The notes beneath the pieces were generated by a model, which had not been told where the DNA came from, made no database searches, and saw only the letters and a list, made by a program, of their open reading frames with translations. A stretch of DNA of 64,000 nt from Gautieria morchelliformis (taxonomy: Eukaryota > Basidiomycota > Agaricomycetes > Gomphales > Gomphaceae), in the NCBI GenBank assembly GCA_015179125.1, contig WHVA01000406.1, forward strand, positions 1-64,000. Reading direction: 5' to 3'. This document shows, one piece after another, positions 32,291 to 63,999 of this stretch. Numbering within the stretch: the first letter of the stretch is position 1; each line of letters opens with the position of its first letter. The translations under genes and the position numbers were made by a program.

Positions 32291-32518
32291 ATGAAATCAT
32301 CCGACATCTATCTAAGTCTAAGTCTAAGAGTTAAACGCGCTCAGTGGGTTGTGGGCGCTGCTGACCAATGCTTGGTCACCAGTTTGTCAGCGGAGCGCGC
32401 GAGCGGCGCAGCCGCGAGCCCCTGGCCCTATCACCGGTTTACGCCGGTCTGCCGGCTCCAGGGCTCTCTCTTTAGGTCAGCGGCGAGCGGCGCAGCCGCG
32501 AGCATGAACGCTGGTCAG

Positions 32519-32585
32519 CGGTCACGTGACCCGTTCGCGACAGCGTATGAGCATGGTCCGTGCACGACACGCGCGCGGTATAAAG
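32519..32585 (+). promoter_or_regulatory. conserved Helitron promoter: CACGTG palindrome, GTGCACGAC and TATA box
   Basis: A GGTCACGTGACC palindrome, then GGTCCGTGCACGAC, then TATAAAG at 32579-32585. The same order recurs in the other non-coding units (TATA at about 35298, 44265, 46997, 50274, 53228, 56660, 58643, 61605 and 63652) at near-constant spacing although surrounding sequence has diverged, which suggests that transcription from here was selected. Confidence 0.6.
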
Positions 32586-34249
32586 GCCGCACGGTAAGGA
32601 GGGAACGCTAGGAACCTGCCCCACCGGCGATTCCTCTGTCCGCTGTCTGCTCTGTGCTCTGTCTGCTCTGTGCTCTGTCTGCTCTGTGCTCTGTCTGCTC
32701 TGTGCTCTGTGCTCTGTGCTCTGTCCGCTGTCTGCTCTGTGCTCTGTCTGCTGTCTCCTCCTTTAGCTGGCTGCCTGTCTATTGCTTGGCTGGCCCTCTA
32801 TTGGTAGGTAATATGTTTTTTTTATGCATTGCCATGTATTTTATTTTATTTGTAGTGGTAATTTTATTGTTTTTTTTTTCATCATAGTATTGTCACATGT
32901 GCATTATATTTTTATGATTTTTTTCGAAAATAGTTTTAAATAACATCCAAAGACTGCTGAAAAAAATGTATTTTAATATCAATATTTTTCAGGGTTTTTT
33001 CGAAAATTGACATCAATAAGTTTCCTCTAAAATCAATGACAATAGATTCTGCTTTTAAATGTTGTTTGTTTTATTGTTTTATTTACTGTAAAGCTGCTTA
33101 CCAGGCACTCCTCTCTGGCTATACTGGTGGCTGGCTTACTATGGCTTTGGCTGGGCTCTGGGTTTGTCTGTCAGTCTCTGGGCTTCTCTGGCTTTGGCTG
33201 GGCATTAATAACAGCTTCTGCTTCAATGTACTGTACTTTTTTGACATTTTTTTGCAGATATATGTCAATAAATTATCCTGACTTTATGCAAATTGACGCT
33301 CCAGCTTAAATGTACAGTGCATTTTTTTGACAGATTTCAAAAAATAGATAATCCTAACTTTGCTAAAATTAATAACAGCTTCAGCTTACATGTACTGGAC
33401 AGTTTTTTGACACGAAAAATAGATAATCCTATAATCCTGACTTTGCTAAAATTAATGAGCAGCTGCTTAAATATGGTTTCCTTTACTATTTTATTTATGT
33501 CTGTAAAATAGATATTGATACATGTCCCTGAGTTTGCTAAAAGTTAATGATAAGTAAAAGCCTCTGCTTGCAATTATATCTCTAATATTCATTGTAAACC
33601 CTCTGTCATTTACTTATTTTGCTTGCATATACAATAATTTCACTTTGAGGCCCTTGGGGATATGCTACACTTGGGGGATGCATGTTATTCATGGGGCACT
33701 ACGCATGGGGGACAAGCTATACTCGGAGGACAAACAAGGGACATGCTACACACACTATACTTGAGGGATATGCTATGCACACTATACTTGGGGACACACT
33801 ACATGTGAGGACATGCCATGTGTGAGGACACGCCTTACATATCCTTTAAATTTTTCGATATTTTTTCGCAAATAGACATCAATAAATAAAACTTGCTAAC
33901 CTCAATAACACTTAAATATCCTGTACATTTTTTTGACATTTTTTCGAAATGGATCTCAGTAACTTCTTTGCTCAAGTTAATAACAACTTCTGTTTTAATG
34001 TAGTGTGTTTTTTTTTACCTTTTTTTGAAAAATAAATATAGATATCAATGAATTATCCTGACTTTGCTAAAATTAATACCAGCTTCAGGTTACATGTACT
34101 GTACATTTTTTGACATTTTTTTAAAAGGTAGATATCAATAAATTATCCAGGCTTTGCTAAAATTAATGACAACAGCTGCTTAAATGTGGTTTCTTTTGCT
34201 ATTTTATTTATGTCTATATATGTCACAAAATAGATACTGATACATGTCC

Positions 34250-34560
34250 CTGATATGTGTGAGGACATGTTACGTGTGAGGACATGTTACGTGTGAGGAC
34301 ACGCTACCTGTGGGGACACATTACATGTGAGGACACATTATGTGTGAGGACACGCTACCTGTGAGGACACGTTACGTGTGTGGACACGCTACCTGTAAGG
34401 ACACGTTATGTGTGGAGACACGCTACCTGTGAGGACACACTACCTGTGAGGACATGTTACATTTGGGGACACACTACCTGTGAGGACACATTACGTGTGG
34501 GGACATGCTACCTGTGAGGACACGCTACCTGTGAGGACACGTTATGTGTGAGGACATGCT
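34250..34560 (+). repeat. 17-bp minisatellite (unit 1)
   Basis: About 18 copies of GGACACGCTACCTGTGA and variants (GTTACGTGTG). The same minisatellite is in units 4, 8 and 10 with very different copy numbers (up to about 1.3 kb in unit 4). Confidence 0.9.
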
Positions 34561-34697
34561 ATCCAACTGCACTTTGGGTCTTCCCCCATTTCTGATTTTG
34601 GTATTGTTTCTGGTTCTGTGAGAGTGTCGTCATCGGAGGATCAGCTGGCATATCCATATAACCACATTGTCAAAATTCAGGATCCCCAAGATCACTA

Positions 34698-34898
34698 TTG
34701 GATCTATTTCACAATGCACAAGCTTTGAAACCTGTTGATTATGACAATAGGCGCAATCTTATAATCTCTGATGATTCAGTCAAGACCATTACCACTTTCA
34801 TGTCTAGAGTCGCTGGGAGGGCCAGCCCAGAGGTCGAGAGAGAGCTCTGCATGTTCGGCTGTTCCTTGGGTGCATACATGATTCATGATACTATATGA
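34698..34898 (+). pseudogene. conserved 66-codon open frame of type-X Helitron units, copy 1
   Basis: The frame reads ALKPVDYDNRRNLIISDDSV, KTITTFMSRVAG, then EVERELCMFGCS to YMIHDTI and a stop. Related copies are at 46397-46597, 58049-58231 (frameshifted near its end) and 63039-63239. It begins at a TTG, with no ATG upstream in frame, so it may be an exon of a captured host gene rather than a complete protein. No family is recognised. Confidence 0.45.
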
Positions 34899-36519
34899 AC
34901 AGGGATATATTTTGCATGATCCTATTTACCCCAATGCACTTGACCTTACTGATTCACTTGACCTTACTGATGCATTTGACCTTACCAAGGCGCTTGACCT
35001 ACACCCCCGCGCGAAGCGCGGGTACCCACCTAGTTCCTATAGGTGAAAGCAGCACGGTGGGAGGTTGTGGGCGCGCTGACAAATGCTGACCAATGCTTGG
35101 TCATTAGTTTGTCAGCGGAGCGCGCGAGCGGCGCAGCCGCGAGCCCCCGGCCCTATAACCGGTTCACGCCGGTCTGCCGGTTCCAGCGCTCGAAGCTGCA
35201 CGCTGGCAGCTGCGCAGCAGCGTTTCGCGGTCACGTGACCGGTTCACGCCGAATGCGTCCATATGCGAGGCTGGTCCGTGCACGACCCTTCGCGCGGTAT
35301 AAATACCAGGAACACTGCGTTGCCCTTCACACCACTCGCTGGTGTCTCTGGCTTTGGCTATACTGGGCTGTCATTCTTTTGCTGGGCTGTCTATTTCTTT
35401 AGCTGGGCTGCCAATTTCTTTAGCCTGGCCACCTATTTCTTTAGCTGTGCTGTCTACTTCTTTAGCTGCGCTGTCTGTTTCTGTAGCTGCGCTGTCTGTT
35501 TCTGTAGCTGCGCTGTCTATTTCTTTAGCTGGGCTGCCAATTTCTTTAGCTAGGCCGCCTATTTCTTTAGCTGCGCTGTCTGTTTCTTTAGCTGAGCTGT
35601 CTGTGCCTTGAGCTGCGCTGTCTGTGTCTTGAGCTGCGCTGTCTGTTGCTTTAGCTGCGCTATCAATGTCTTTAGCTGCGCTGTCTGTTTCTTCAGCTGT
35701 GCTGTCTTATTTCTTGAGCTGGCTGTCTATTGGCTTCACTGGCTTTGTATTGGTAGGTCATCATTTTTTTTTTTATCCCACTGAAATGTATTTTAAATTT
35801 TTTATTTGGAATTTTATTATTTTTCACTTTATAATTTTGTGAAATTTTTCTAAAATAGATTTAAATAATCCCAAGACTTTGCTGAAAGAAATGTATTTTA
35901 ATATAGATATTTTTCAGGTTTTTTTCGAAAATAGAAGTTTCTTCTAAAATTAATGACAATAAGTTCTGCTTTTAAATGTGGTTTGTTTTGTTGTTTTATT
36001 TACTGTAAAGCCCCTATACTGGTGGCTGGCTTACTATGGCTTTGGCTGGGCTCTGGGTTTCTCTGTCAGTCTCTGGGCTTCTCTGGCTTTGGCTGGGCAT
36101 TAATAACAGCTTCTGCTTCAATGTACTGTACTTTTTTGACATTTTTTTCGCAGATAGATTTCAATAAATTATCCTGACTTTATGAAAATTGACAACAGCT
36201 CCAGCTTAAATGTACAGTGCATTTTTTTGACATTTTTCGAAAAATAGATAATCTTGACTCTGCTAAAATTAATAACAACTTCAGCTTAAATGTACTGGAC
36301 ATTTGTTTTGACATTTTTCAAAAAATAGATAATCCTGACTTTGCTAAAATTAATGACAGCAGCTGCTTAAATATAGCTTCCTTTACTATTTTATTTATGT
36401 CTGTATATGTCACAAAATAGATATTGATACATGTCCCTGAGTTTGCGAAAAGTTAATGATAAGTAACAGCCTCTGCTTGCTTCACTTTGAAGCCCTTGGG
36501 GATATGCTACACATGCCAT

Positions 36520-36740
36520 TGGGACATGCATGTTATGCATGGGGACACGCATGTTATGCATGGGGACACGCATGTTATGCATGGGGACACGCATGTTATG
36601 CATGGGGACACGCATGTTATGCATGGAGACACGCATGGTATGCATGGGGACAAGCATGTTATGAGTGGAGACATGCATGTTATGCATGGGGACAAGCATG
36701 CTATGCATAGGGACACACAGGCTATGCATGGGGATGTGCA
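36520..36740 (+). repeat. 21-bp minisatellite (unit 2)
   Basis: About ten copies of CATGTTATGCATGGGGACACG. As 21 is divisible by three, open frames rich in Met-His-Gly-Asp or Cys-Tyr-Ala-Trp arise on both strands without meaning. Confidence 0.9.
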
Positions 36741-37418
36741 CACTATATGTGGTGACACACTATGCTTGGCGGACATGGTACGAACAAGGGACACACTACA
36801 GGGGAAAACACTACAAACAAGGGACATTCTACACATGCTATACTTGGGGGACATGCTACAAACAAAGGACATGCTATGCATTGGGGACACACTTTGCACA
36901 CTATATTTGAGGGAGATGCTACACACACTACATGTAGGGACATGCTACACATGTGGACACGCTATGCATGGGGGACACACATGCTATAATTTATGGACAC
37001 GCTATGTTTGGGGACATGCTACAAACCAGGGACATGCTATGCATGTGGGACATGCCATGCACACTGTACTTGGGGACATGCTACATGTGGAGACACACTA
37101 TGCATGGAGGACATGCTACGCACACTATACTTGGGGACATGTTATGTGTGGGGTCATGTTACAAACCAGGGACACAATAAGCATGCTATATTCGAGGCTA
37201 TGCATGGAGGACATGCTATGCACGCTATACTTGGGCACATGCAGACATGTGTAGAGACATTACCTATCTTGATGTGTTACTTATAGCTACTTTCAATTGC
37301 AATGAGATGTGTTTTACTTATCCCAAGTTTGATTTACCCAATGCGTTTGGCCTTGCTGATGCATTTGACCTTACCGAGGCGTTTGACCTACACCCCCGTG
37401 TGAAGCATGGGTATCCAC

Positions 37419-37422
37419 CTAG
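37419..37422 (+). other. internal degenerate Helitron 3' terminus in unit 2
   Basis: A decayed hairpin (CCCGTGTGAAGCATGGG) followed by CTAG is joined to interior type-Y sequence (AGGTAAGGGTTCAAG) rather than to a 5' end. Similar relics are at 49582-49585 and 56064-56067. They mark older unit ends now buried inside type-Y units. Confidence 0.6.
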
Positions 37423-38903
37423 AGGTAAGGGTTCAAGAATTGAGTTAAGTTGGATATCAGAAATCAAGTTGGAAGGCAGAGGTCAGAGAGACAGAGGCCT
37501 TGCAAGTACTTGCTATGCTAAGACAGGAAACAGTGCAAAGGGAGTCACATATCAAAGTCAATTATGTGATTGCAGAACAGAGGCACACATGACTGGGTTT
37601 TATACAAAGAGCTGAGACAACATGTCAGAAGGTAGAGGTAAGCAATTCCGGTGCAAGCAAAGTAACTTGATGCTCTGGACTTGCTATGCTAAGGGTCAAG
37701 TAGGGAAGGCCGGTGAATAGAGTCAAAAGGGGAAGTATGTGAATAGTAAAGAACAAGGGGATCAAAAGGTCAAAGTGTGGACATTGCGGAATAGAGCCAG
37801 AGGAGGCATGGAGGTACCAGAGTTGGTCGAGCAGCATGGTCATAACATTACCTACCTTCAATCAATAAGATGTGTTTTACTTATCTGAATGAAATTTTCT
37901 TATCTGAATGTGTTTGACTTATCCCAAGTTTGATTTACCCAAGGCATTTGACCTTGCTGGTGCGTTTGACCTTACCGAGGTGTTTGACTTGCACCCCCGC
38001 GCGAAGCGCGGGTATCCACCTAGTCTAAGAGTTAAACGCGCTCAGTGGGTTGTGGGCGCTGCTGACCAATGCTTGGTCATCAGTTTGTCAGCGGAGCGCG
38101 CGAGCGGTGCAGCCGCGAGCCCCTGGGCCCTACCGGCGGTTTGCGCCACTCTGCCGGCTCCAGCGCTGCGCAGCGTTCTGGAGCGTGCGAGCGGTTTACG
38201 CCGGTCTGCCAGCTCAGGCGCTCAAAGCAGCGCTGCGCTGGCAGATCGCTGCGCAGCCAGCCGCTTTGCGCACTCCACCACCACCCTCCTCTCCTCTCCT
38301 CTCTGCCCACTACTAGATAGAATAAAAATTGCGTGAGACTGAATTAATAGATAGCCTATATAGTGTAGTACACAAAAGATCTCTTCCCAGGGAGGTCTCT
38401 GCAGTGAACTATTGGGGTTGACCCCTTCATTGGGGCAGCTTTTTCTCTGCTAAGGAGCCAGGTAGTCATCCCAGGCTGCCTTAGAGGGAGCCACAATTGC
38501 ATTGCAGTTCTTTCAGTGTTGACTTGCACTACTGGTGGCTGAAGAAGACATCTCCCCAGGACCAGGACCAGGACCAGGACCTTTTACTGGAAGAATTATT
38601 CCAGTTGGATAGCCGAAGAAGACTTGGATATTTTCATCAAAAAAATTCCCCATCCCTTCCTTGGTACATATATTTCTCTGTGGTCTGGTGTGAGCCATCT
38701 GACAGTTTTTTTTTTTCTTTTAAATAGAAATTATTAAATTCCCTTGACTTTGCCTAACAAACAGACTCCCCATCCCTTCCTTGGTATGTATGTATTTCTC
38801 TGTGGTCTGGTGTGAGCTGTCTGACATTTATTTAATTAGAAATTAATAAATTCCCCTGACTTTGCCCAAGAAAAATTAACAACAACAGCATCTGCTTGCA
38901 AAT

Positions 38904-38960
38904 GTAAGTTGAAGTGGGGTAGCTTGATTGTTCCTCTAAGCTTATGCCTGCATTTCTCAG
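38904..38960 (+). other. probable intron at the start of the RepHel gene
   Basis: GTAAGT at 38904 and TTTCTCAG at 38951-38960 enclose 57 bp. If spliced, the ATG at 38944 lies inside the intron and the real start is in an upstream exon that I could not identify. Confidence 0.4.
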
Positions 38961-41900
38961 GGATCCATCTACTCCAGAGAGAAATCGTCAGCAGGAGCGT
39001 GAAAGGGCAAGGGAGGAGCAGGAGGGTCGTATGACGTCGCCTACTGATCGGAGAGTGCGTGCCCTTGCTGTGGCTGCTGGCAGAGCTCGGAACCAGCCAC
39101 CCCCTCCACCACCTCCTTTTGCCATCCCTCACCCTCCTCCTAGAAGCAATGCGGCTGATCCTTTTCAACAACCTGCTGCAGGGCCATTACGTCCTCCTGA
39201 TCCCAGTCCTGGACAGCAGGTGGCTGCCCTTCGTGCTCAGTTAGCAGCAATCCCAGCAGCACAGCCCGTGAGAAGATACAGGCAGGCGCCTATACAGCCA
39301 CCTCCCAATCTTCCGGTGGTTGGTTCTGCAGGAATTGCACAGTTGCGTGCTCAGGCTGCTGAGCAGTCTGCTATATTGCAGCAATTTGGAAGAGGTAGAC
39401 AGGCAGCTAATCCTCCTGTAGTAGGTTCTGCAGGAGTGGCAGCATTGCGTGCTCAGGCCAATGCAATAAGACCAATGCCTCCGCTACTCCCTGCGCTTCT
39501 GCGGCCTCTTCAGCGACTCCCTGCACCTCCTCAGCCTCCTCTGCCACTCCCTGCACCTCCTCAGCCTCCTCTGCCACTCCCTGCACCTCCACAGCCTCTT
39601 CTGCCACACCCTGCACCTCCTCAGCCTCCTCTGCCACTCCCTGCACCTCCACAGCCTCTTCTGCCACACCCTGTACCTCGGCAGCGTCCTCAGCGACTTC
39701 CTCCTTTTATTCCACTCGGTCGCTCTAGAATAATCGAGGCAGATGTGCTGCGTCATGATCTGGGTCCCATGGTTGTTGCCTGCCCTGACTGTGGAGCATT
39801 ACACTGGATGGCAGAACGCCTGCTGAGATCCTCAAATCGGCGGCCCAGATTTGGTGATTGCTGTTTAGAAGGCAAGGTGCAGCTTCCAGAGCTGCCAGTG
39901 CTCCCTCAGCCATTGAGACGGCTCTTAGAGGGCCAGGACCCTGAGGCCAAACAGTTTCGCAAGAACATCAGGCAGTACAATGCTGCATTTGCATTCACTT
40001 CCTTGGGAGCCGACTTTGACCAAGATTTGCTTCGGGAGGGTCATGGTCCATATGTCCTCAAGCTGCAGGGCGAACTGTATCATATTCATGGCTCTCTCAT
40101 CCCTAACCCTGGGAGGCGGATACAGTATGCCCAACTTTATATATATGATCCAGCATTGGCTTTGGCACAGAGGAACACGCGTAACCCAGGTCTGTCTCCA
40201 ACTATCATGGGAGACTTGCAGGAAATGCTCCTCTTATGCAATCCTCATGTTCCCATATATAGACAAGCGGCTGAGAGGCTCAGAGCTCAGGGACAGAATG
40301 GTGAGATCCGGGCTAGGCTCACATACAGGGAACACAGGGATCCTAGGAGGTATAATATCCCTACTGCGGATGAGATTGCGGTGGTTCTTCCTGGAGATGG
40401 CATCAACCCTGAACCTAGGGATGTTATTGTCCAGCTCAAAGGTGGACGCTTTCGAAGGGTATCCGATATGAATCCAAACTATGCCTCTCTTCACTATGTC
40501 TTGCTCTTTCCCAGGGGAGAGTTGGGGTGGCAACCTGGTATTCGCTATCGCCAATTACCAGACGGGCGTGAGCGAAGTGGGCATGTCACCCAAATTCAGT
40601 TCCATTCCTATCGTCTCTTCCAGAGAACAGAAGAACCTACAACACTCCTGCGCGCTGGCAAATTATTCCAGCAGTACATTGTAGACTCTTGGGCCGCTGC
40701 AGAGCAAAGCAGGCTGTGGTGGATCAGGACAAATCAACACACTCTCCGTGCTGAGATGTATAACCAGATGATGGATGCCTTTCATCGCAATGACAATGAC
40801 AGAGATCCAAACAACTTGGGCATAAGATCCATTCTGCCTGCCACATTTCAGAGGGGGACACGGGACATGCAGGAAAACCTGCAGAACTCTCTGGCCATTT
40901 CAAGGAAGTATGGTGTGGCAGATCTCTTTATTACCATGACTGCCAATCCCAACTGGCAGGAGGTATTGGATGCATTGTTGCCCGGACAAACTCCTCAGGA
41001 CAGGCCTGACCTGGTGTCGCGGGTGTTCCAGCTCAAAAAGAAATACCTCATTGACTTGATCGTCAAGGAAAAGATTTTTGGGGAAACTGTCGCTCGCGTG
41101 CACACCATTGAATTCCAGAAAAGGGGACTCCCACACATGCATATTCTTATCTGGTTTGAAAGAGATTCCAAGATCAGACATCCACATGAGGTGGATTCAA
41201 TGATTTCGGCAGAGTTCCCTGATCCAGAGACTCATCCTGTCCTCTACCGGTTGGTCTGTGAGCTGATGACACATGGTCCCTGTGGACAAATGAAACCAAA
41301 CTCACCCTGCATGGAAAATGGCAAGTGCAAGAAAAACTTCCCAAAGCCATTCTGTGAGGAAACCAGTCTGAATGAGGATGGATATCCAAAATATCGTCGT
41401 CGCAATGATGGAAGGCTGCACAATGTCAGAGGTGACATGCTGGACAACAGATGGGTTGTGCCATACTCTGCTCTGCTCTTGCTCAAATTCTGGTGTCACA
41501 TCAACCCTGAGCTCACCATCAATGTGAGGTGTATCAAGTATATCCACAAGTATCTCTACAAGGGCCATGATCGGACCACCATGGAGTTTGGTCGCACCCA
41601 GGATGAAATTAAGCAGTACCTGGACGCTCGCTATGTCAGTGCTCATGAGGCCTGTTGGAGGTTGCTGGAGCGGGAAATCCACACCCAGGTGCCTGCAGTC
41701 ATGGCACTGCCAGTCCATGAAAAGGACCATCACACAATCATCTTTGATCCCAACCAGGATGTGGACAACATCCTGGAAAGGGCTGAGGCGAAAAAGACAC
41801 CGCTCATGGCTTACTTTGAGGCCAATGATATCTACCCTGAAGCACGTGATCTGCTCTATGTGGAGTTTCCTGAGCATTTTACCTGGCAAGCACAGGAAAA

Positions 41901-43884
41901 GGTATGGACACCACGCCAAAGAAGCTTTAGCATCGGTCGCCTTCACTTTGCAAACCCTAAATCAGGAGAGAGATTTTTTGTGCGCACTCTCCTCACAGTG
42001 GTCAAGGGGGCTAGATCCTTTGAGGAGCTTAGGTCGGTGGATGGCATATAATATGCTACTTACAAGGAGGCCTGTCGTGCAAGGGGACTTCTGGATGATG
42101 ATCAGGAGTTGAGGTTGTGTCTCCAGGAAGCCAGTGGCATGAAAACAGGTGCTCAGCTCAGATATCTCTTTGCCACCATCCTTGGCCATTGCAATCCATC
42201 GGGCCCCGGCAGATTATGGGATGCCTTCAGGGAGCACATATGTGATGATCTCAGACATCAGCTCCAAATCAGACATGGTATGCAGAATCCACAGGACGAT
42301 CAGGTTTATGATTTTGGCCTCTTTCTCTTGGAAAAAATCCTCCAGCAGGGTGGAATGTCCTTGAGCAGCTTTGATGATATGCCTCGGGTGGCAGGCGAGT
42401 GGGAGGCCCTCATTGGAAACAGGTTCATAGCTGAGCAGAGGGACTATGACCCTGTTGCAGAGAGGGACATAGCTGATGAGGAGGTTCCCAGGCTGAATGA
42501 GGGGCAAAGGTCTGCGCATGATCAGATATTACGGTCGGCACTGACCAGAGATGCTCATGGGAAACCTGATGGACAAATGTTTTTTGTCACTGGCTCAGGT
42601 GGTGCTGGGAAATCATTCACATGGAACACTCTAATCCACTCCTGTAGAGCGGAGAGCCTTATTGTGATTGCAGTAGCCTCATCTGCAATGGCTGCCCTTA
42701 TCCTCACTAAGGGTACAACCTCTCATAGCATGCTTGGAATTCCCATTCCTGTCCATGAGCGCTCTCTCTCCTTCATCACAAAGAACTCTGACAAGGCTGA
42801 TATGCTGAGACTGGCCAGTCTCATCATTTGGGATGAGGCTGCAATGCAGCATCGCCATGCCATAGAGGCCATTGACAGGACACTGAGGGATTTCCTTGAC
42901 CAGCCTGACCGACCCTTTGGTGGCATCACGGTTGCCTTTGGAGGTGACTTTCAGCAGACTCTCCCAATTGTCCCCAAAGGCTCCAAGGAGGATATCGTGG
43001 GAGCTACCCTTCAGAAGTCATATCTGTGGCCAAAGATCAAGGTCCTCCATCTGACAGAGAACATGCGGGTGAGAAATGACCCTGACAGAGCCCGGTTTGC
43101 AGAATGGCTGCAGAATGTGGGTCAGGGAAAGGATCTCCCACTAGATCATACGTTCTCACTCCCTCCTCACATGGTTTGTGGCCCTGGAATTGAAGATCTG
43201 ATCCAGGAAATATACCCTGGCATTGGAAATGCAATCCCTGCCCAGGACAATTATTTCTTGGAGCGGGCCATCCTCTGTCCCAGAAATATTGAGGTCAATG
43301 AGATCAATTCCATGGTGTTGAGGCAGTTTCCAGGTGATGCTCAGGTCTTCCACTGTGCAGATTCTGTCAAGGAAACCGACTTTGCAGAGCAGTATCCTGT
43401 GGAGTATCTGAATTCCATAGAGATGAGCAGTCTTCCTCCTGCTCACTTGGAAGTCAAGCCTGGAGTGCCTCTGATGATGTTGCGCAATTTGGATAAGAAG
43501 CAAGGACTATGCAATGGGACAAGGTTGCGGTTGGTGAGGATGAGGAATAGAGTGTTGGAGGTCAGGATCATCTCAGGTCCACGTGCAGGAAATACTGCTT
43601 TCATCCCCAGGATCACTATTTCACCATCAGAGGGAGAATTACCATTTGTGCTGCAGAGGAGACAGTTTCCAGTGCGTGTGGCATTTGCAATGACCATCAA
43701 CAAGTCTCAGGGACAGTCTTTGGGTACGGTTGGGCTGGACCTGAGATATCCAGTGTTTGGACATGGTCAGTTGTATGTTGGTGTTTCAAGGGGAACAAGC
43801 TGGAACAAAGTGAAGGTCTTCCTTGAGGAGGGTTTGAACACAACCAACATTGTATATAAAGATGTATTACTTAGAGCTCCTTGA
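38944..43884 (+). pseudogene. Helitron Rep/helicase (RepHel) transposase, interrupted by one stop
   Basis: About 1,646 codons in one frame, broken only by TAA at 42049-42051 (VDGI*YATYKEAC). Order: a proline-rich N-terminus with six 10-residue LPAPPQPPLP repeats (39503-39690), a cysteine motif CPDCGALHW, a Helitron-like N region, and the Rep nuclease with HUH motif LPHMHIL (41131-41148) and the two-tyrosine motif KYIHKYLYKG (tyrosine codons 41539 and 41551). The Pif1-type helicase follows with Walker A GSGGAGKS (42592-42615), Walker B IIWDEA (42823-42840) and the C-terminal motif QLYVGVSRGTSW. The nuclease should nick and join the Helitron ends and the helicase unwinds them. All catalytic residues are present, so the stop is recent, a sequencing error, or read through. 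The nearby non-autonomous units presumably used such a protein. Confidence 0.9.
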
Positions 43885-44011
43885 TTTCTGATATCTACTT
43901 GATGCAAATTGATTACTTTGATTTTCCCCAATGCACTTGACCTTACTGATATGTTAGACTTACCGATGCATTAGACTTACTGATGTGTTTGACCTTGCCG
44001 AGGCGTTTGAC

Positions 44012-44046
44012 TTGCACCCCCGCGCGAAGCGCGGGTATCCACCTAG
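44012..44046 (+). terminator. Helitron 3' terminal hairpin and CTAG end (unit 3)
   Basis: CACCCCCGCGCGAAGCGCGGG folds into a 7-bp GC stem with a GAA loop, then TATCCAC, then CTAG at 44043-44046. This is the structure that ends rolling-circle transfer in Helitrons. It is given as the reference for identical ends in most other units. Confidence 0.9.
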
Positions 44047-44914
44047 TCTAAGAGTTAAACGCGCTCAGTGGGTGGTTGTGGGCGTCGCTTATGTCAGGTT
44101 TTAGGTCAGCATTGGTCAGCTGGCCAATCGGACGCGAGCGGCGCAGCCGCGAGCCCTAGGCCCCTGGCCCAGGCCAGACCATTGACGCTGCGCAGCAGCG
44201 TTCCAGGTCACGTGACCGGTTCACGCGACCATACGAGGGTGGTCCATGCACGACCCTTCGCTTGGTATAAAGAGAGTGATGCTGCAGAACCGCACTCCCC
44301 ACTGGTGTCTTCCTGTGTTCTGGCTGTACTGGTGGGCTTACTATTGCTTTGGCTGGGCTCTGGGTGTCTTTGTGTGTGTCTCTGGGTGTCTCTGGGCTTC
44401 TCTGGCTGTGAATTGACACCAGCTTCTGCTTCAATGTCCTGTATATTTTTTTGATATTTTTTCGCAAATACATATCAATAAACCTAACTTGCTAACCTTA
44501 ACAATAGCCAACTTACATATCCTGTACATTTTTCGATATTTTTTCCCAAATAGACATCAATAAATCTAACTGGCACCTATCCTGTAAATTTTTTTGACAT
44601 TTTTTCGCAAATGGATATCAATAACTTATACTGACTTTGCTCAAGTTGATAATAACATCTGTTTTAATGTAGTGTGTTTTTTTTTATCTTTTTTTGAAAA
44701 ATAAATATATATATCAATGAATTATCCTGACTTTGCTAAAATTAATACCAGCTTCAGGGTAAATGTACTGTACATTTTTTGACATTTTTTCAAAAGGTAG
44801 ATATCAATAAATCATCCAGGCTTTGCTAAAATTAATGACAACAGCTGCTTAAATGTGGTTTCTTTTGCTATTTTATTTATGTCTATATAAATAGATACTG
44901 ATACATGTCCCTGA

Positions 44915-46265: not shown

Positions 46266-46396
46266 CAACTGCACTTTGGGTCTTCCCCCATTTCTGATTT
46301 TGGTATTGTTTCTGGTTCTGTGAGAGTGTCACCGGAGGATCAGCTGGCATATTGATATAACCACATTGTCAAAATTCAGGATCCCCAAGATCACTA

Positions 46397-46597
46397 TTGG
46401 GTCTATTTCACAATGCACGAGCTTTGAAACCTGTGGATTATGACAATAGGTGCAATCTTATAATCTCTGATGATTCAGTCAAGACTATTACCACTTTCAT
46501 GTCTAGAGTTGCTGGGAGGGCCATCCCAGAGGTTGAGAGAGAGCTCTGCATGTTCGGCTGTTCCATGGGTGCATACATGATTCATGATACTATATGA
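46397..46597 (+). pseudogene. conserved 66-codon frame, copy 2
   Basis: Open over the same span as copy 1, with substitutions such as R to C (DNRCNLIIS) and S to I (AGRAIPEVE). The stop position is the same. Confidence 0.45.
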
Positions 46598-52978: not shown

Positions 52979-55900
52979 TTCCTATAGGTGAAAGCGGCTC
53001 GGTGGGTTGTGGGCGTCGAGCTTATGTCAGCTTTTAGGTCATCAGTTTGTCAGCGGAGCGCGCGAGCGGCGCAGCCGCGAGCCAAGAACGCTGCGCAGCA
53101 TGGTCACGTGACCGTTTGCGTTCCAAATTAGGTCAGCGGCGAGAGAACGCTGCGCAGTGGTCACGTGACCCGTTCGCGACCAGAGCGCGCATACGCGAGT
53201 GTGGTCCGTGCACGACACGCGCGCACGGTATAAAGGCCGAACGGTAAGGACATAACGCCAGGAACCTGCCCAACCGGCGATTCCTCTGTCTGCTGTCCGC
53301 TATGTGCTCTGTGCCCTGTGCTCTGTGCTCTGCGCTGTCTGCTCTGTCCGCTGTCAGCTCTGTGCTCTGTCTGATCTGGGTGCTGTCTGCTGTCAGCTCT
53401 GTCTGCTGTCTCCTCCTTTAGCTGGCTGGCTGTCTATGGCTTTGGTTGGCTGACTATCTATTGGCTTGGCTGGCTATCTATTGGTAAGTAATATCTCTTT
53501 TTTAATGCATTCCAATGTATTTTATTTGATTTGTGTTTATAATTTTATTGGTTCCTTTTTTTTTATCATATTGCATTCACATGTGCTTTATATTTTTGTG
53601 ATTTTTTTCGAAAATAGATTTAAATAAAATCCAAAGACTGCTGAAAAAAAAGTATTTTAATATCAATATTTTTCAGGTTTTTTTCGAAAATAGACATCAA
53701 TAAGTTCCCTCTAAAATTAATGAGATTCTGCTTTTAAATGTGGTTTGTTTTATTGTTTTATTTACTGTAAAGCCACTTACCAGCCACTCCTCTCTGGCTA
53801 TACTGGTGGCTGGCTTACTATGGCTTTGGCTGGGCTCTGGGTTTCTCTGTCAGTCTCTGGGCTTCTCTGGCTTTGGCTGGGCATTAATAACAGCTTCTGC
53901 TTCAATGTACTGTGCTTTTTTGACATTTTTTCGCAAATAGATATCAATAAATTATCCTGACTTTGTGAAAATTGACAACAGCTCCAGGTTAAATGTACAG
54001 TGCATTTTCTTGACATTTTTCGAAAAATAGATAATCCTAACTTTGCTAAAATTAATAACAGCTTCAGCTTACATGTACTGGACATTTTCTTGACATTTTT
54101 TCGAAAAATAGATAATCCTGACTTTGCTAAAAATTAATGACAGGAGCTGCTTAAATATAGATTCCTTGACTATTTTATTTATGTCTGTATATGTCACAAA
54201 ATAGATATTGATACATGTCCCTGAGCTTGCTAAAAGTTAATAAGTAGTAACAGCCTCTGCTTGCTTCACTTTGAGGCCCTTGGGGATATGCTACACATGC
54301 CATTGGGACATGCTATGCATGCTATACTTGAGGGGCATGCTACACACACTATGCATGGGGACATGCATATGCGTGGAGACATGCATGGGATGCGACACAC
54401 ACGCTATGCTTGGGGACACGCATGCTATGTGTGGAGACACTCATGGTATGCATGGAGACACTCATGTTATGCGTGGGGACACACACACTATGCTTGGGGA
54501 CACGCACGCTATGCATGGAGACATGCATGTTATGCGTGGGGACACGCACACTATGCATGGAGACATGCATGTTATGCGTGGGGACATGCACGCTATGCTT
54601 GGGGACACGCACACTATGCTTGGGGACACCCATGTTATGCGTGGAGACACACACACTATACTTGGGGACACTCATGTTATGCGTGGAGACACGCATGTTA
54701 TGCATGGGGACACACATGCTATGCATGGGGATGTGCACACTATATGTGGGGACACACTATGCTTGGGGGACATGGTACAAACAAGGGACACACTACAGGG
54801 GAAAACACTACAAACAAGGGACATTCTACACAAGCTATACTTGGGGGACACGCTACACACACTACATGTAGGGACATGCTAGACATGTGGACACGCTATG
54901 CATGGGGGACACACATGCTATAATTTAGGGACACGCTATGTTTGGGCACATGCTACAAACCAGGGACATGCTACACACAGAATACTTGAGGGACATGTTA
55001 TGCATGTGGGACATGCCATGCACACTGTACTGCATGTGGGGACACACTACATATGGAGACATGCTACATGTGGAGACACACTACGCACACTATGCTTTGG
55101 GACACACTACGTGTGGGGACATGCCACATGTGAGGATGCAATACGTGTGAGGACAGATAAAGTGTGATGACACACTACAGGCAAGGACACACTACATGTG
55201 AGGTAGGGGACATGAGACATGGGAGAAATGTGTAGAGTCATTACCTGTTATGTATCAGGTTTGGATCTAAAAGGACTGCAGCTCCAACTTATATGTTGCA
55301 CCCCCAACTATCATCCTAAGTATTTTGGAGATCTGAGATTGGAAGTTGGAAGAGGTTGAGTATTGTAACTGAAGTAGTAAGGGTTCAAGAATTGAGTTAA
55401 GTTGGATATGAGAAATCAAGTTGGAAGACGGAGGTCAGAGAGACAGAGGCCTTGCAGGTCTAAGAACCGGAGACAGTGTAAAGGGAGTGACATATCAAAG
55501 TCGATTATCTGATTGCTGAACAGAGGCACACATGACTGGGTTTTATACAAAGAGCTGAGACAACATGTCAGAAGGTAGAGGTAAGCAATTCCAGTGCAAG
55601 TAACTAGAATAAAAGTACCTAATGCGAAACAAGAGGAACTACAAGGGGGTGCAGTGTAGAACTAAGAACAATAGGCAAAAGACCAAGGGTCTAATTGGTA
55701 GCGGAACAAATGGAACTCCTGACGCTCTGGACTTGCTGTGCTGAGGGTCAAGTATGGAATGCTGGTGAAAAGAGTCATTAGGGGAAATATGTGAAGAACA
55801 AGGGGATCACAAGGTTGAAGTGCAGACATTGTGGAATAGAGTCAGAGGTGCGGGGGTACCGGAGTTGGTTGAGCATGGTCATAACATTACCTACCTTGAT

Positions 55901-56456
55901 GTGTTATTTAGAGTTACTTTCAATCAATAAGAAGGGTTTTACTTATCTGAATGAAATTTTCTTATCCGAATGTGTTTGACTTATCCCAAGTTTGATTCAC
56001 CCAATGCGTTTGACCTTACCGATGCATTTGACTTGCACCCCCATGTGAAGTGTGGGTACCCACCTAGGGAATTGATAGCGGAACAAATGGAACTCCTGAT
56101 GCTCCGGAATTGCTATGTTAAGGGTTAAGTAAGGAAGGCTGGTGAATAGAGTCATAAGGGGAAGTATGTGAATAGGAAAGAACAAGGAGATCAAAAGGTT
56201 GAAGTGTGGACATTGCGGAATAGAGTCAGAGGAGGTGCAGAGGTACCAGAGTTGGTCAAGCAGCATGGTCATAACATTACCTACCTCAATGTGTTACTTA
56301 GAGCTACTTTTAATCAATAAGATGCATTTTACTTATCTGAATGTGTTTGACTTATCCCAAGTTTGATTTACCCAAGGTGTTTGACTTTGCTGATGTGTTT
56401 GACCTTACCGAGGCGTTTGACTTGCACCCCCGCGCGAAGCGCGGGTATCCACCTAG
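52979..56456 (+). mobile_element. Helitron unit 7, non-autonomous type Y
   Basis: Starts TTCCTATAGGTGAAAGCGGC. The GC-rich head is duplicated (CACGTG at about 53104 and 53162). TATA near 53228; CTCTGTGCTCTG tract 53280-53410; 21-bp minisatellite 54350-54735. From about 55050 it closely follows unit 5, including the internal terminus at 56064-56067, so units 5 and 7 are probably recent duplicates. Confidence 0.85.
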
Positions 56457-57404
56457 TCTAAGAGTTAAACGCGCTCAGTGGGTGGTTGTGGGTGTCGCTT
56501 ATGTCAGGTTTTAGGTCAGCATTGGTCAGCTGGCCAATCGGACACGAGCCCTAGGCCCCTGGCCCAGGCCAGACCATTGACGCTGCGCAGCAGCGTTCCA
56601 GGTCACATGACCGGTTCACGCGACCATACGAGGGTGGTCCGTGCACGACCCTTCGCTTTGTATAAAGAGAGCGATGCTGCAGAACCGCACTCCCCACTGG
56701 TGTCCTCCTGTGTTCTGGCTGTGGTGGGCTTCCTACTTCTTTGGCTGGGGTCTTGGTGTCTTTCTGTGTGTCTCTGGATGTCTCTGGGCTTCTTTGGCTG
56801 TGAATTGACACCAGCTTCTGCTTCAATGTCCTGTATATTTTTTGATATTTTTTCGCAAATTGCTATCAATACACCTAACTTGCTAACCTTAATAATAGCC
56901 AACTTAAATATCCTGTACATTTTTTTCATATTTTTTCGCAAATAGCTATCAATAAACCTAACTTGGTAACCTTAACAATAGCCAACTTACATATCCTGTA
57001 CATTTTTGGATATTTTTTCGCAAATAGACATCAATAAATCAAACTTGCTAACCTCAATAACAGCCACCTTAACTATCCTGTAATTCTTTTGACATTTTTT
57101 CGCAAATGGATATCAATAACTTATACTGACTTTGCTCAAGTTGATAACAACTTCTGTTTTAATGTAGTGTGTTTTTTTATCTTTTTTTTGAAAAATAAAT
57201 ATAGATATCAATGAATTATCCTGACTTTGCTAAAATTAATACCAGCTTCAGGTTAAACGTACTGTACATTTTTTGACATTTTTTCAAAGGCAGATATCAA
57301 TAAATTATCCTGACTTTGCTAAAATTAATAAGAACAGCTGCTTAAATGTGGTTTCTTTTCCTATTTTATATATGTCACAAAATAGATACTAATACATGTC
57401 CCTG

Positions 57405-57915
57405 ATATGTGTGAGGACACGCTACCTGTGGGGACACGTTACCTGTGAGGACATGCTACGTTTGGGGAAACGCTACCTGTGAGGACACGTTACGTGTGGG
57501 GACACGCTACCTGTGAGGACACGCTACCTGTGGGGACATGCTACCTGTGAGGACACGCTACCTGTGAGGACGCGCTACCTGTGAGGACACGCTACCTGTG
57601 AGGACACGCTACCTGTGAGGACACGCTACCTGTGAGGACACGCTACCTGTGAGGACACGCTACCTGTGAGGACATGCTACCTGTGAGGACACGCTACCTG
57701 TGAGGACACGCTACCTGTGAGGACACGTTACGTGTGAGGTCATGTTACGTGTGAGGACACACTACCTGTGAGGACACGTTACGTGTGGGGACATGCTACC
57801 TGTGAGGACACGCTACCTGTGGGGACACGTTACCTGTGAGGGCACGCTACGTTTGGGGACACGCTACCTGTGCGGACATGCTACCTGTGAGGACACGTTA
57901 CGTGTGAGGACATGC
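57405..57915 (+). repeat. 17-bp minisatellite (unit 8)
   Basis: About 30 copies; the middle part (57540-57720) is almost homogeneous. Confidence 0.9.
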
Positions 57916-58048
57916 TATCCAACTGCACTTTGGGTCTTCCCCCATTTCTGATTTTGGCATTGTTTCTGGTTCTGTGAGTGTCACCAGAGGATCAGCTGGC
58001 ATATCGATGTAACCACATTGTCAAAATTCAGGATCCCCAAGGTCACTA

Positions 58049-58231
58049 TTGGATCTATTTCACAATGCACAAGCTTTGAAACCTGTGGATTGTGACAATA
58101 GGCGCAATCTTATAATCTCTGATGATTCAGTCAAGACCATTACCACTTTCATGTCTAGAGTCGCTGGGAGGGTCATCCCAGAGGTCGAGAGAGAGCTCTG
58201 CATGTTGGCTGTTCTATGGGTGCATACATGA
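58049..58231 (+). pseudogene. conserved 66-codon frame, copy 3, frameshifted
   Basis: Same as copies 1 and 2 up to ERELCM, then a single-base deletion near 58206 shifts the frame and ends it early. Confidence 0.45.
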
Positions 58232-58383
58232 TTCATGATACTATATGATCAGGGATATATTTTGCATGATCCTATTTACCCCAATGCACTTGACCTCACT
58301 GATTCACTTGACCTTATTGATGCATTTGACCTTACCAAGGCACTTGACCTACACCCCCGCGCGAAGCGCGGGTACCCACCTAG

Positions 58384-61300
58384 TATTACACTATATGAAA
58401 ACAGCTCGGTGGGTTGTGGGTGTCGAGCTTATGTCAGGTTTTAGGTCATCAATTTGTCAGCGGCATGCGAGCGGCGCAGCCGCAAGCTGCGCAGCATGGT
58501 CACGTGACCGTTTGCGTTCCAAATTAGGTCAGCGGCGAGCGGCGCAGCCGCGAGCATAGAACGCTGCGCAGCGGTCACGTGACCCGTTCGAGACCAGAGC
58601 GCGCATACGCGAGTGTGGTCCGTGCACGACACGCGCGCACGGTATAAAGGCCGAACGGTAAGGACATAACGCCAGGAACCTGCCCAACCGGCGATTCCTC
58701 TGTCTGCTGTCTGCTATGTGCTCTGTCTGCTCTGTGCTCTGTGCTCTGTGCTCTGTGCTGTCTGCTCTGTGCTCTGTGCTCTGTCCGCTGTCTGCTCTGT
58801 GCTCTGTCTGCTCTGGGTGCTGTCTGCTGTCAGCTCTGTCTGCTGTCAGCTCTGTCTGCTGTCAGCTCTGTCTGCTGTCAGCTCTGTCTGCTGTCACCTC
58901 CTCTAGCTGGCTGGCTGGCTATTGCTTTGGCTGGCTGGCTATCTATTGGTAGGTAATATCTTTTTGTTAATGCATTGCCATGTATTTTATTTTATTTGTG
59001 TTGGTAATTTTATTGGTTCCTTTTTTTTTTTCATCATATAGTATTGTCACATGTGCATTATATTTTTGTGATTTTTTTCGAAATTAGATTTAAATAACAT
59101 CCCAAGACTGCTGAAAAAAAATGTTTTAATATCAATAGTTTTTGGGTTTTTTTCGAAAATAGACATCAATAAGTTTCCTCTAAAATTAATGACAATATGT
59201 TCTACATTTAAATGTGGTTTGTTTTATTGTTTTATTTACTGTAAAGCTGCTTACCAGCCACTCCTCTCTGGCTATACTGGTGGCTGGCTTACTATGGCTT
59301 TGGCTGGGCTCTGGGTTTCTCTGTCAGTCTCTGGGCTTCTCTGGCTTTGGCTGGGCATTAATCACAGCTTCTGCTTCAATGTACTGTACTTTTTTGACAT
59401 TTTTTCGCAGATAGATATCAATAAATTATCCTGACTTTGTGAAGATTGACAACAGCTCCAGGTTAAATGTACAGTGCATTTTTTTGACATTTTTCGAAAA
59501 ATAGATAGTCCTAACTTTGCTAAAATTAATAACAGCTTCAGCTTACATGTACTGGACATTTTCTTGACATTTTTTCACAAAATAGATAATCCTGACTTTG
59601 CTAAAAATTAATGACAGCAGCTGCTTAAATATGGTTTCCTTGACTATTTTATTTATGTCTGTATATGTCACAAAATAGATATTGATACATGTCCCTGAGT
59701 TTGCTAAAAGTTAATAAGTAGTAACAGCCTCTGCTTGCTTCACTTTGAGGCCCTTGGGGATATGCTACACATGCTATACTTGAGGGGCATGCTACACACA
59801 CTATGCATGGGGACACGCATGTTCTGCGTGGAGACATGCATGTTATGTGTGGAGACATGCACGCTATGCTTGGGGACATGCATGCTGTGTGTGGAGACAC
59901 ATGTTATGCATGGGGACACACACGCTATGCTTGGGGACATGCATGCTATGCATGGTGACACACATGTTATGCTTGGAGACACACATTTTTTGCATGGGGA
60001 CATGCACCCTATGCTTGGGGACATGCATGCCACATGTGGGGACACACTATCCTTGGGGACAGACAGGCTATGCATGGGGACACACATGCTATGCGTGGAG
60101 ACACACATGTTATGCGTGGGGACAAGCATGCTATCCATGGGGACATACACGCTATGCTTGGGGACACGCATGTTATGCGTGGTAAGCAATTCCAGTGCAA
60201 GCAAAAGTAACTAGGATAAATGGAGTAAGTAACTAATACCAAACAAGAGGAACTACAAGGGGGTGCCGGGTAGAACTAAGAACAATCAATAGGCAAAAGA
60301 ACAAGGGGAATGTGGGTCTAATTGTTTGTTACGTATTGGAATTCCCAGAGGTCGGAACTGGAAAGGACAACGGCTTCAACTTATGTGTTGCGCCCCTGAT
60401 GAACTACCGTCCTAAGTATTTCGGGATTGACTTGCGGATATCGGAGAAGGCAGAAGTCAGGAACAGAGTACTGAGAGTCGAGGGTTGAGGGTTGGAGAAC
60501 AAAGGTCGGAAGAGGTGGAAGAGGCGGAGGACAGAGGGTTGAGAGCGGAAGGAGACAAGACTAGCAAAACTCACTGTGCTAAGAACAGGAGACAGTGCGA
60601 AGGGAATCACATATCGAAGTTGATTATCTGATTGCAGGAACGGAGACATACATGAGGGGGGTTTATACAAAGAGCTGAAGCAACAGGTAATGGTATGGTA
60701 CTAAGCAAATTCTGGAGAGTGCAGGAATCAGATAGACATACGGGGCAAGTAACTAATGCGGAACAATGGGATGACAAGGGGGGTGCAGGGTAGGGTAAGT
60801 AAAATGGCAAAGAACAAGGCGAGTAAGTACAATAGGCCTTGGAAGAAACGGAATTACGGAAATGGTATCTTGCTGTATTCAGGGTCGAGTACGGGGGCCA
60901 GTATCTGGAGGTGGCCAGGGGTACTGAAATCACAAGGGTCGAGGTAGAGGGTTGCAGATGGTGCGGATGTTGTGGAATAGAGTCGGAGGTGGTGCGGAGG
61001 ATATGCGGATATGGCGGAGATGGTTGAGCGGAACAGTCGTAACATTGATAGTGGAACAAATGGATCTCCTGATGCTCTGGACTTGCTATGCTAAGGGTCA
61101 AGTAGGGAAGGCCGGTGAATAGAGTCAAAAGGGGAAGTATGTGAATAGTAAAGAACAAGGGGATCAAAAGGTCAAAGTGTGGACATTGCGGAATAGAGCC
61201 AGAGGAGGCATGGAGGTACCAGAGTTGGTCGAGCAGCATGGTCATAACATTACCTACCTTCAATCAATAAGATGTGTTTTACTTATCCCAAGTTTGATTT

Positions 61301-61387
61301 ACCCAAGGCATTTGACCTTGCTGATGCGTTTGACCTTACCGAGGCGTTTGACTTGCACCCCCGCGCGAAGCGCGGGTATCCACCTAG
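58384..61387 (+). mobile_element. Helitron unit 9, non-autonomous type Y
   Basis: Starts TATTACACTATATGAAAACA. The head is duplicated with two CACGTG palindromes (58500, 58577). CTCTGTCTGCTGTCAG tract 58700-58900; 21-bp minisatellite 59800-60185. The 3' segment from about 61040 is nearly identical to that of unit 2 (37670-37900), which shows exchange between distant units. Confidence 0.85.
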
Positions 61388-62244
61388 TCTAAGAGTTAAA
61401 CGAGCACGGTGGGTTGTGGGCGCAACGCTGACAAATAATGTTACGTAAAAATTAGGTCAGCGGAGCGAGCGGCGCAGCCGCGAGCCCTAGGCCCCTGGCC
61501 CAGGCCAGACCATTGACGCTGCACAGCAGCGTCCCAGGTCACGTGACCCGTTCGTGTTCGTCGCAACCATATGCGAGGGTGGTCCGTGCACGACCCTTCG
61601 CTCGGTATAAAGAGAGCGATGCTCCAGCACCGCACTCCCCACTGGTGTCCTCCTGTGTTCTGGCTGTGGTGGGCTTACTACTGCTTTGGCTGGGGTCTTG
61701 GTGTCTTTCTGTTGGTCTCAGTGTGTCTCTGGGTGTCTTTCTGTGTGTCTCTGGGTGTCTTTCTGCGTGTCTCTGGGTGTCTCTGGGCTTCTTTGGCTGT
61801 AAATTGACACTAGCTTCTGCTTCAATGTCCTGTATATTTTTGATATTTTTTCGCAAATTGCTATCAATACACCTAACTTGCTAACCTTAATAATAGCCAA
61901 CTTAAATATCCTGTACATTTTTTTGATATTTTTTCGCAAATAGAAATCAATAAATCTAACTTCCTAACCTTAATAACAGCCAACTTAAATATCCTGTACA
62001 TTTTTTGATATTTTTTCGCAAATAGATATCAATAACTTATTCTGACTTTGCTAAAGTTAATAACAACTTCTGTTTTAATGTAGTGTGTTTTTTTTTGATC
62101 TTTTTTCAAAAAATAAATATAGATATCAATGAATTATCCTGACTTTGCTAAAATTAATGACAACAGCTGCTTAAATGTGGTTTCTTTTGCTATTTTATTT
62201 ATGTCTATATATGTCACAACATAGATACTGATACATGTCCCTTA

Positions 62245-62905
62245 TATGTGTGAGGACACGCTACCTGTGGGGACACATTACATGTGAGGACACGTTATGT
62301 GTGAGGACACGCTACCTGTGGGGACACGTTACGTGTGGGGACACATTACATGTGGGGACATGCTACCTGTGAGGCCATGCTACCTGTGGGGACACGCTAC
62401 CTGTGAGGCCATGCTACCTGTGGGGACACGCTACCTGTGGGGACACGTTACATGTTGGGACATGCTACCTGTGAGGACACGTTACGTGTGGGGACATGTT
62501 ATGTGGGGGGACAACCTGTGAGGACACGTTACGTGTGGGGACACGCTACCTGTGAGGACATGTTACGTGTGAGGACATGCTACCGGTGGGGACACGTTAC
62601 GTGTGGGGACACGCTACCAGTGGGGACACGCTACCGGTGGGGACACGCTACCTGTGGGGACACGCTACCTGTGGGGACACGTTACGTGTGGGGACACATT
62701 ACATGTGGGGACATGCTACCTGTGAGGACATGCTACCTGTGGGGACACGCTACCTGTGGGGACAGGTTACATGTTGGGACATGCTACCTGTGAGGACACG
62801 TTACGTGTGTGGACACGCTACCTGTGAGGACATGTTACGTGTGGGGACACGCTGCCTGTGAGGACACGCTACCTGTGAGGACACATTACGTGTGAGGACA
62901 TGCTA
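62245..62905 (+). repeat. 17-bp minisatellite (unit 10)
   Basis: About 38 copies with local duplication: the block 62290-62480 is repeated at about 62650-62810. Confidence 0.9.
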
Positions 62906-63038
62906 TCCAACTGCACTTTGGGTCTTCCCCCATTTCTGATTTTGGTATTGTTTCTGGTTCTGTGAGAGTGTCACTGGAGGATCAGCTGGCATATCGATAT
63001 AACCACATTCTCAAAATTCAGGGTCCCCAAAATCACTA

Positions 63039-63239
63039 TTGGATCTATCTCACAATACACGAGCTTTGAAACCTGTGGATTATGACAATAGGCGCAATCT
63101 TATAATCTCTGATGATTCAGTCAAGACTATTACCACTTTCATGTCTAGAGTCGCTGGGAGCCCCCCCCCAGAGGTCGAGAGAGAGTTCTGCATGTTCGGC
63201 TGTTCCATGGGTGCATATATGATTCATGATACTATATGA
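63039..63239 (+). pseudogene. conserved 66-codon frame, copy 4
   Basis: Open over the full span. A C-run at 63161-63169 replaces the GGCCAGC codons of other copies (GSPPPEVE), without loss of frame. Confidence 0.45.
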
Positions 63240-63356
63240 TCAGGGATATATTGTGCATGATCCTATTTACCCCAATGCACTTGACCTTACTGATGCATTT
63301 GACCTTACCAAGGTGCTTGACCTACACCCCCGCGCAAAGCGCGGGTACCCACCTAG

Positions 63357-63999
63357 TCCTATAGGTTAAAGCAGCTCGGTGGGAGGTTGTGGGCGCCGCT
63401 GACAAATAATATTACGTAAATATTAGGTCAGCGGCGAGCAGCGCAGCCGCGAGCAATGAATGCTGTGCAGCGGTCACGTGACCGGCATACCGGCGTGAAC
63501 CTGGAGTGCGAGCGGCGCAGCCGCAAGCCCCTGGCGGTTCACGCCGATATGCGGGCTCCAGCGCTCAACCCAGCGCTGCACTGGCAATGAACGCTGCGCA
63601 GCGGTCACATGACCCATTTGCGCGTGGTCCGTGCCCGACGCGCGCGCACGGTATAAAGGCAGAATGGTAAGGATGGAACACCAGGAATCTGCCCAACCGG
63701 CAATTCCTCTCTCTGCTGTCTGCTGTCTGCTGTCTGCTGTCTCCTCTGTCTGCTGTCTGCTCTCTCTGGTGCCTCCTCCTTTAGCTGGTTGGCTGTCTAT
63801 TGCTTTGGCTGGCTGGCTGTCTATTGCTTTGGCTGGCTGGGTATCTATTGGCTTGGCTGGCTGGCCATCTATTGGCTTGGCTGGCTTTCTATTGGTAGGT
63901 AATATCTTTTTTTTAATGCATTGCCATGTATTTTATTGTATTTGTGTTGGTTCCTTTGTTTTTCATTGTATAGTATGGTAACATGTGCATTATATTTTT
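63357..63999 (+). mobile_element. Helitron unit 11, start of a type-Y-like unit, cut by the window edge
   Basis: Starts TCCTATAGGTTAAAGCAGCT. It contains CACGTG at 63475, GGTCCGTGCCCGAC, TATAAAG near 63652, CTGTCTGCTG repeats 63710-63770 and the donor-like CTATTGGTAGGTAATATC at 63889, then runs off the window. Confidence 0.8.

Follow-up and report, generated by a model that had tools for sequence, protein, structure and literature searches.

Head-to-tail stacks of Helitrons in the genome of Gautieria morchelliformis and their probable growth by insertion at resident 5' ends

We analysed a stretch of 64,000 nucleotides of DNA from the basidiomycete Gautieria morchelliformis (the window), which comprises bases 1-64000 of contig C456 (WHVA01000406.1; 105,963 bases) in a genome of 122 Mb and 1113 contigs. 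An earlier note, made from the sequence of the window, described a run of Helitrons joined head to tail, CTAG to 5' end, with no host DNA between them, and the unit ends, the joints and the RepHel reading frame reported below confirm this description (Table 1). With its head-to-tail units and direct end joints, the locus is a tandem Helitron array, which is real in the assembly and longer than first claimed, at 12 units and about 35.8 kb. The previous count of 11 units holds up to the window edge, which cuts the last of them, but the array continues to its right edge at contig position 68147, where other DNA starts with T. Similarly, its start had been placed at 32311, whereas element remnants begin at 32307 and full units at 32323. 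Internal minisatellites (17-, 21- and ~81-bp) in the units vary in length among copies (window 34258-34556, 44919-46263, 57410-57917 and others). An Rfam search of the window gave 0 matches.

Table 1. Features of the Helitron array and of the related empty site (window positions unless stated otherwise)
Feature	Position	Strand	Remarks
Inverted, array-free paralogue of the host site (empty site)	7545..8183	-	Flanks meet at ~7990
Partial 5' termini TCTA+TCTAAG+TCTAAG	32307..32322	+	Between host DNA and unit 1; direct reading; bases missing from the empty paralogue
Unit 1	32323..35033	+	Type A 5' end; 2711 bp
Unit 2	35034..38023	+	Type B 5' end (TTCC); 2990 bp; internal decoy 3' end at 37422
Unit 3	38024..44046	+	Type A; 6023 bp; bears the RepHel reading frame
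Rep half of RepHel, in unit 3	38923..42048	+	Helitron_like_N PF14214 6.9e-57; matches Helraiser residues 104-899
PIF1-type helicase half	42052..43881	+	Same frame as the Rep half; PIF1 PF05970 8.7e-66; Pif1_2B 7.4e-17
Unit 4	44047..46714	+	Type A; non-autonomous; 2668 bp
Unit 5	46715..50099	+	Type B; 3385 bp; decoy 3' end at 49585
Unit 6	50100..52978	+	Type C (TTACACTATATG); 2879 bp
Unit 7	52979..56456	+	Type B; 3478 bp; decoy at 56067
Unit 8	56457..58383	+	Type A; 1927 bp
Unit 9	58384..61387	+	Type C; extra TA ahead of TTACAC; 3004 bp
Example 3' terminator	61360..61387	+	7-bp stem CCCGCGC-GAA-GCGCGGG, then TATCCACCTAG; 48 nt folded as DNA, -10 kcal/mol, z -1.79
Unit 10	61388..63356	+	Type A; 1969 bp
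Unit 11	63357..64000	+	Type B (TCC); only its start in the window; runs to contig 66462
Unit 12	contig 66463-68147		Right-edge unit; outside the window

By their sequence the units appear to be canonical Helitrons, save that those of types B and C mostly start with TT. A Rep (HUH) domain and a PIF1 helicase lie in one frame, although in unit 3 an in-frame stop at 42049-42051 splits the two halves, and the match between Helraiser and the Rep half extends over 777 residues (564 bits, phmmer 5.3e-168). In each of the six units longer than 5.5 kb, of which the domain scan covered unit 3 of the window, the long frame is in at least two pieces with breaks at differing places, and introns are possible; an active source copy was not seen but may exist. 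The 3' end is of the CTRR type, a hairpin lies about 10 nt upstream of it, and insertion between A and T (A-T below) without target duplication is seen in the edge counts and in the empty paralogue. The RepHel protein, the CTAG end, the 3' hairpin and the A-T target without duplication are shared with canonical Helitrons of the Helraiser/Helibat kind; unlike these, types B and C here have mostly TT instead of TC at their 5' ends, and most type A copies are stacked end to end.

The motif CCACCTAG occurs 14 times in the window, compared with 1.81 expected from shuffles, and 13 of the 14 are on the plus strand, from 35026 to 63356. Each unit is terminated by a hairpin and CCACCTAG, after which the following unit begins directly with its 5' end; exact copies of the tail pattern number 915 in the genome. 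Three of the 13 plus-strand sites (ends 37422, 49585 and 56067) are degenerate decoys within type B units, which we count as internal because the same decoy-plus-tail layout recurs in other arrays. This recurrence in place led us to reject segments 37423-38023, 49586-50099 and 56068-56456 as separate units. For the latter two, it also counts against separate status that the tails after decoys 49585 and 56067 resemble the segment ahead of the decoy (81-82% identity), as if the 3' region of type B units had been duplicated and the first terminator abandoned.

At least three types of 5' end were distinguished: A, TCTAAGAG; B, T(T)CCTATAGG; and C, TTACACTATATG. The TC start that had been ascribed to each following unit holds for type A; in types B (TTCC) and C (TTAC), most ends have TT there. 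Likewise, the occasional extra T noted earlier between units is read here as part of the B and C ends, but one junction in the window does have extra bases (TA at 58384). The type B end at 63357 lacks one T, a single case in the window. Elsewhere, a RepHel-sized unit of 6.8 kb at C204:331870-338668 (L019, L020) has a type C 5' end, yet over 85-94% of its length it resembles a type A unit of C269 (95.5%), a sign of swapped 5' ends. Partial 5' ends (TCT, TCTA, TCTAAG, TCTAAGA) were found directly ahead of a full 5' end at window 32307-32322, at L078 (C142), and on C53 and C191; they may be aborted insertions or products of slippage.

The joint is a genome-wide pattern. A search for the unit junction, which the earlier note had suggested, found CCACCTAG-N(0-4)-TCTAAGAG 367 times in the genome and 0 times with the pattern reversed. 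Exact type A 5' ends (TCTAAGAGTTAAACG) number 312, of which 232 directly follow CTAG, 72 follow A and 8 follow neither; with a zero-gap joint ahead of 232 of 312 ends, the array can no longer be called unusual, as had been supposed. Within 4 bases, the genome has no head-to-head joins of type A, the type which that test covered, and no tail-to-tail joins of any kind (0 and 0). Among 94 listed type A ends up to contig C271, 66 follow CCACCTAG with zero gap, one (C191) follows it after 4 bases, 25 others follow A (those on C78 and C142 sit 8 and 7 bases past a 3' end), and two follow neither, one of these coming after a mutated CCACTAG. We also examined 60 3' ends, taken from the first 100 listed of the 915 with preference for arrays with at least two, so that joined ends may be over-represented: a Helitron 5' end follows in 46 and other DNA in 14. 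Of the 46, 34 were called by script as A, B or C (one after 7 bases) and 12 by eye (10 variant and 2 truncated 5' ends), and five of the 10 variants represent a further type, TC[T/A]ATAGTATAAAG.

The host target site could be compared with an empty counterpart, a paralogue at about 93% identity and not an allele, whose flanks match those of the array with 92.7% identity over 193 bp on the left and 93.3% over 431 bp on the right. The occupied site reads ...CCGACA, 16 bases of partial 5' ends (TCTA, TCTAAG, TCTAAG), the array, and then TTAATTATACC..., and the empty site reads ...CCGACAATTAACTATAACG. The 16 extra bases at 32307-32322 are element-like and not host, the left edge is one A shorter than the paralogue, and there is no target duplication. 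From this comparison, the 35.8 kb are best read as inserted at one A-T (CCGACAA-TTAAC). Over the host edges examined, A precedes the array in 21 of 24 left edges (the exceptions are the G of the window, one T and one mutated joint), and T follows it in 18 of 18 right edges.

Several other 5' ends deserve mention. L018 and L033 (C204 and C157), which are otherwise dissimilar, share a 32-bp sequence (93.8%) ahead of the 5' end, perhaps a captured 5' extension. The left edges L039 and L042 (C181 and C210) occupy roughly equivalent positions in two copies of one host repeat (80% over 310 bp). At C135:156914-157928, a type A 5' end follows A, and another type A start lies some 1 kb upstream of it on that strand; this arrangement resembles ordinary nesting at an internal A-T.

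The relatedness of units was studied in a sample of 44 units from seven arrays. The nearest relative was the adjacent unit in 2 cases, a more distant unit of the same array in 2 and a unit of another array in 40, where 1.7, 5.9 and 36.4 were expected. With coverage of 0.6 or more, the mean identity of same-type neighbours is 88.3% (3 pairs), compared with 88.6% between arrays (144 pairs); without the coverage limit, the values are 91.9% (11 pairs) and 89.9% (353 pairs), on short matches. For example, unit 7 has a relative on contig C269 with 98.7% identity over 98% coverage, and their neighbours differ. No two-unit block common to arrays (both units at least 93%, coverage at least 0.6) was found among 36 joined pairs; 10 pair-of-pair matches reach at least 88%, which is the mean likeness within a type. 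Furthermore, among 25 pairs of tails (700 bp) that differ by no more than 1%, the right neighbour (the next 60 bases) differs in 23 and is the same in 2. Since near-identical tails mostly have different right neighbours and no two-unit block is shared, the units mostly arrive singly.

As a proxy for age we used the distance to the nearest relative (p values are uncorrected). The tails of right-edge units have a median distance of 4.6%, compared with 2.3% for the others (n=17 and 80, p 0.005), and in the commoner tail subtype the values are 5.0% and 3.9% (n=14 and 42, p 0.023). Left-edge heads, to which the left edge of the window was added by hand, are at 1.1%, compared with 3.6% (n=22 and 23; one-sided permutation p 0.024, one-sided Mann-Whitney p 0.057). 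This left-edge difference is limited to heads unlike those of RepHel units (n=14 and 20, p 0.0095), in subset tests that dropped heads beyond 0.2 (2 left-edge, 1 joined). Thus, judged by divergence, the rightmost units look oldest, as expected if the founder is rightmost, and the leftmost 5' ends tend to be younger. In our reading, the founder stands on the right and later copies have come in at whichever 5' ends were already present; growth confined strictly to the left edge is unsupported, there being no age gradient along arrays.

The A-T target, the zero-gap joint of CTAG and 5' end, the strict head-to-tail orientation and the mixed, non-sister content have direct support. On this basis, the array is probably a stack of separately arrived Helitrons, formed at one host A-T site by repeated, single-copy, strand-specific insertion exactly at a resident 5' end. 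The Rep nuclease must nick its own element before the 5' terminus for transposition to start, and it may cut that strand of resident copies at the corresponding place as well. The 5' end of the arriving copy would then be joined to the left side of the nick and its CTAG 3' end to the resident 5' end, the latter step amounting to circle closure in trans, between two copies. From its founder, the rightmost unit, the array would extend by additions at left-edge and internal 5' ends, and the partial 5' ends at 32307-32322 may be insertions that were aborted. Published work on Helraiser lends support to the model. On single-stranded DNA, Helraiser Rep cuts the top strand between the flank and 5'-TC and the bottom strand at an internal AT, and at the 3' end its cut is exact on either strand (substrates of 40 terminal bp and 10 bp of flank); Helraiser circles bear an exact CTAG-TC joint, and insertion favours AT, with AT-rich DNA toward the 3' side (PMC4778049). 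From these cutting and target data, a resident 5' end after A is both a Rep cutting site and an A-T target, and an exact 5' cut on one strand fits the fixed orientation.

Several points weigh against insertion at resident 5' ends. The insertion events themselves were not observed, so that the model is inferred, and Helraiser Rep left double-stranded DNA uncut (PMC4778049). Internal junctions are G-T and not A-T, and therefore internal insertion needs the 5' terminus itself as a cue. The age comparisons comprise several tests on a small sample; the right-edge effect is absent in the smaller tail subtype (2.5% and 2.0%, n=3 and 38, p 0.63), as is the left-edge effect in RepHel-like heads (n=6 and 5, p 0.85), and there is no age trend along arrays (pooled rho -0.05, 33 units, p 0.80; C269 alone -0.58). 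Finally, the 2 of 25 shared right neighbours exceed the background of 127 in 4380 (2.9%, pairs more than 3% apart), the two being a C269-C74 pair (both 100%) and a pair of tails from one C135 array, and a C269-C204 match at 95.8% spans a joint, reaching 1.2 kb to one side of it and 5.8 kb to the other, although the first 60 bases past that joint are just 85% alike. At C269:150209 (L017) and C74:9463 (L059), the joints are identical over 700 bp on the left and 60 bp on the right, which represents either a copied two-unit block or a duplicate contig.

These shared joints would suit an alternative in which different copies are joined before integration, as mixed circles or by read-through from one unit of an array into its neighbour, and are inserted as blocks. 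The joint chemistry would be the same, terminator bypass is known (PMC4778049), and the degenerate decoy 3' ends suggest that terminators do get passed over. However, the 23 near-identical tail pairs without a common right neighbour, together with the lack of shared two-unit blocks at 93% or more (a test that drew on the 44 units, compared with 915 exact tails in the genome), make this alternative rather unlikely. Growth in the opposite direction, with new copies inserted after the resident CTAG 3' end, would yield the same joint, and the 3' end is another exact cutting site of Helraiser Rep (PMC4778049). This possibility is improbable, as it predicts that the rightmost units are youngest, yet they look oldest, and it requires a G-T target, whereas the free host edges are A-T.

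In the earlier note, the whole array was attributed to one event, either a rolling-circle run past the terminator or the insertion of one multimeric circle. Circle junctions do look like zero-gap CTAG-TC joints (PMC4778049), and terminator bypass is the stated cause of tandem Helitrons in bat and Bombyx (PMC4067079). However, a single event would leave sister units more alike than strangers; here the units are of several types and lengths, 40 of 44 have their nearest relative in another array, and neighbours are not sisters. A single multimer was thus rejected, and a one-event origin, already contradicted by these data, is very improbable. It is barely conceivable that the arrays are an assembly artefact of misjoined repeats or a safe haven in which random A-T insertions survive only in Helitron-rich DNA, since, although several small contigs hold several element ends (e.g. 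C48, C56, C74), misjoining could hardly produce 232 base-exact joints, and random insertion should also give head-to-head joints (0 found for type A) and, with A-T at 5-6% of window positions, would match a resident 5' edge by chance about once in 10,000 (a rough estimate).

Outside the array, the window contains long GC-rich tandem repeats of 33 bp at 23101-24244 and 30139-31085, inverted and about 78% alike. They flank a CxC4 cysteine cluster (1.4e-30) and a KDZ transposase match below the Pfam cut-off (27982-29306); this region is possibly a KDZ transposon with satellite-like inverted ends. The pairing of such a cluster with a KDZ match may point to a mushroom-forming fungus.

Tandem Helitrons themselves are known. 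Head-to-tail arrays have been described in bat, Bombyx, Drosophila, rice and maize (PMC4067079, PMC5148889, PMC5876387); those of bat and Bombyx were ascribed to bypassed termination (PMC4067079), and arrays of plants and bat have been adduced in favour of rolling-circle transposition (PMC5876387). In bat and maize, Helitrons that are only distant relatives can be immediate neighbours (PMC4067079). The present arrays may be set apart by the zero-gap joining of about three quarters of the exact type A 5' ends, and by mixed types and lengths in a fixed orientation with a founder-like rightmost unit. In Fusarium, one FoHeli4 was inserted 2 bp upstream of the 5' end of another, and for three tandem copies in Metarhizium acridum the authors offered repeated 5'-end insertion or a rolling circle (PMC5148889). 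These are single cases of the Helitron2 type with other ends, whereas here the pattern is genome-wide. Beyond the FoHeli4 case and the Metarhizium remark, we found no report of stacking directed at 5' ends in a literature without most subscription journals. What seems new here is the scale, the base-exact regularity, the fixed orientation, the mixed content and the empty site.

In the literature examined, tandem Helitrons are mostly put down to missed termination, to which self-directed insertion is a testable alternative. Hundreds of base-exact joints between non-sister units, the empty site and array edges of different age point to self-directed insertion and not to missed termination. Whether this Helitron lineage has gone so far as to make its own 5' end its preferred target seems to us evenly balanced; in that case, Rep would nick residents before the 5' terminus and join incoming copies one way, and the family would grow as ordered, heterogeneous stacks that largely spare the rest of the genome. 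If true, self-directed insertion would allow a transposon to spare its host some of the damage, and it would offer Helitrons a route to the seeding of satellite-like arrays and to the exchange of ends.

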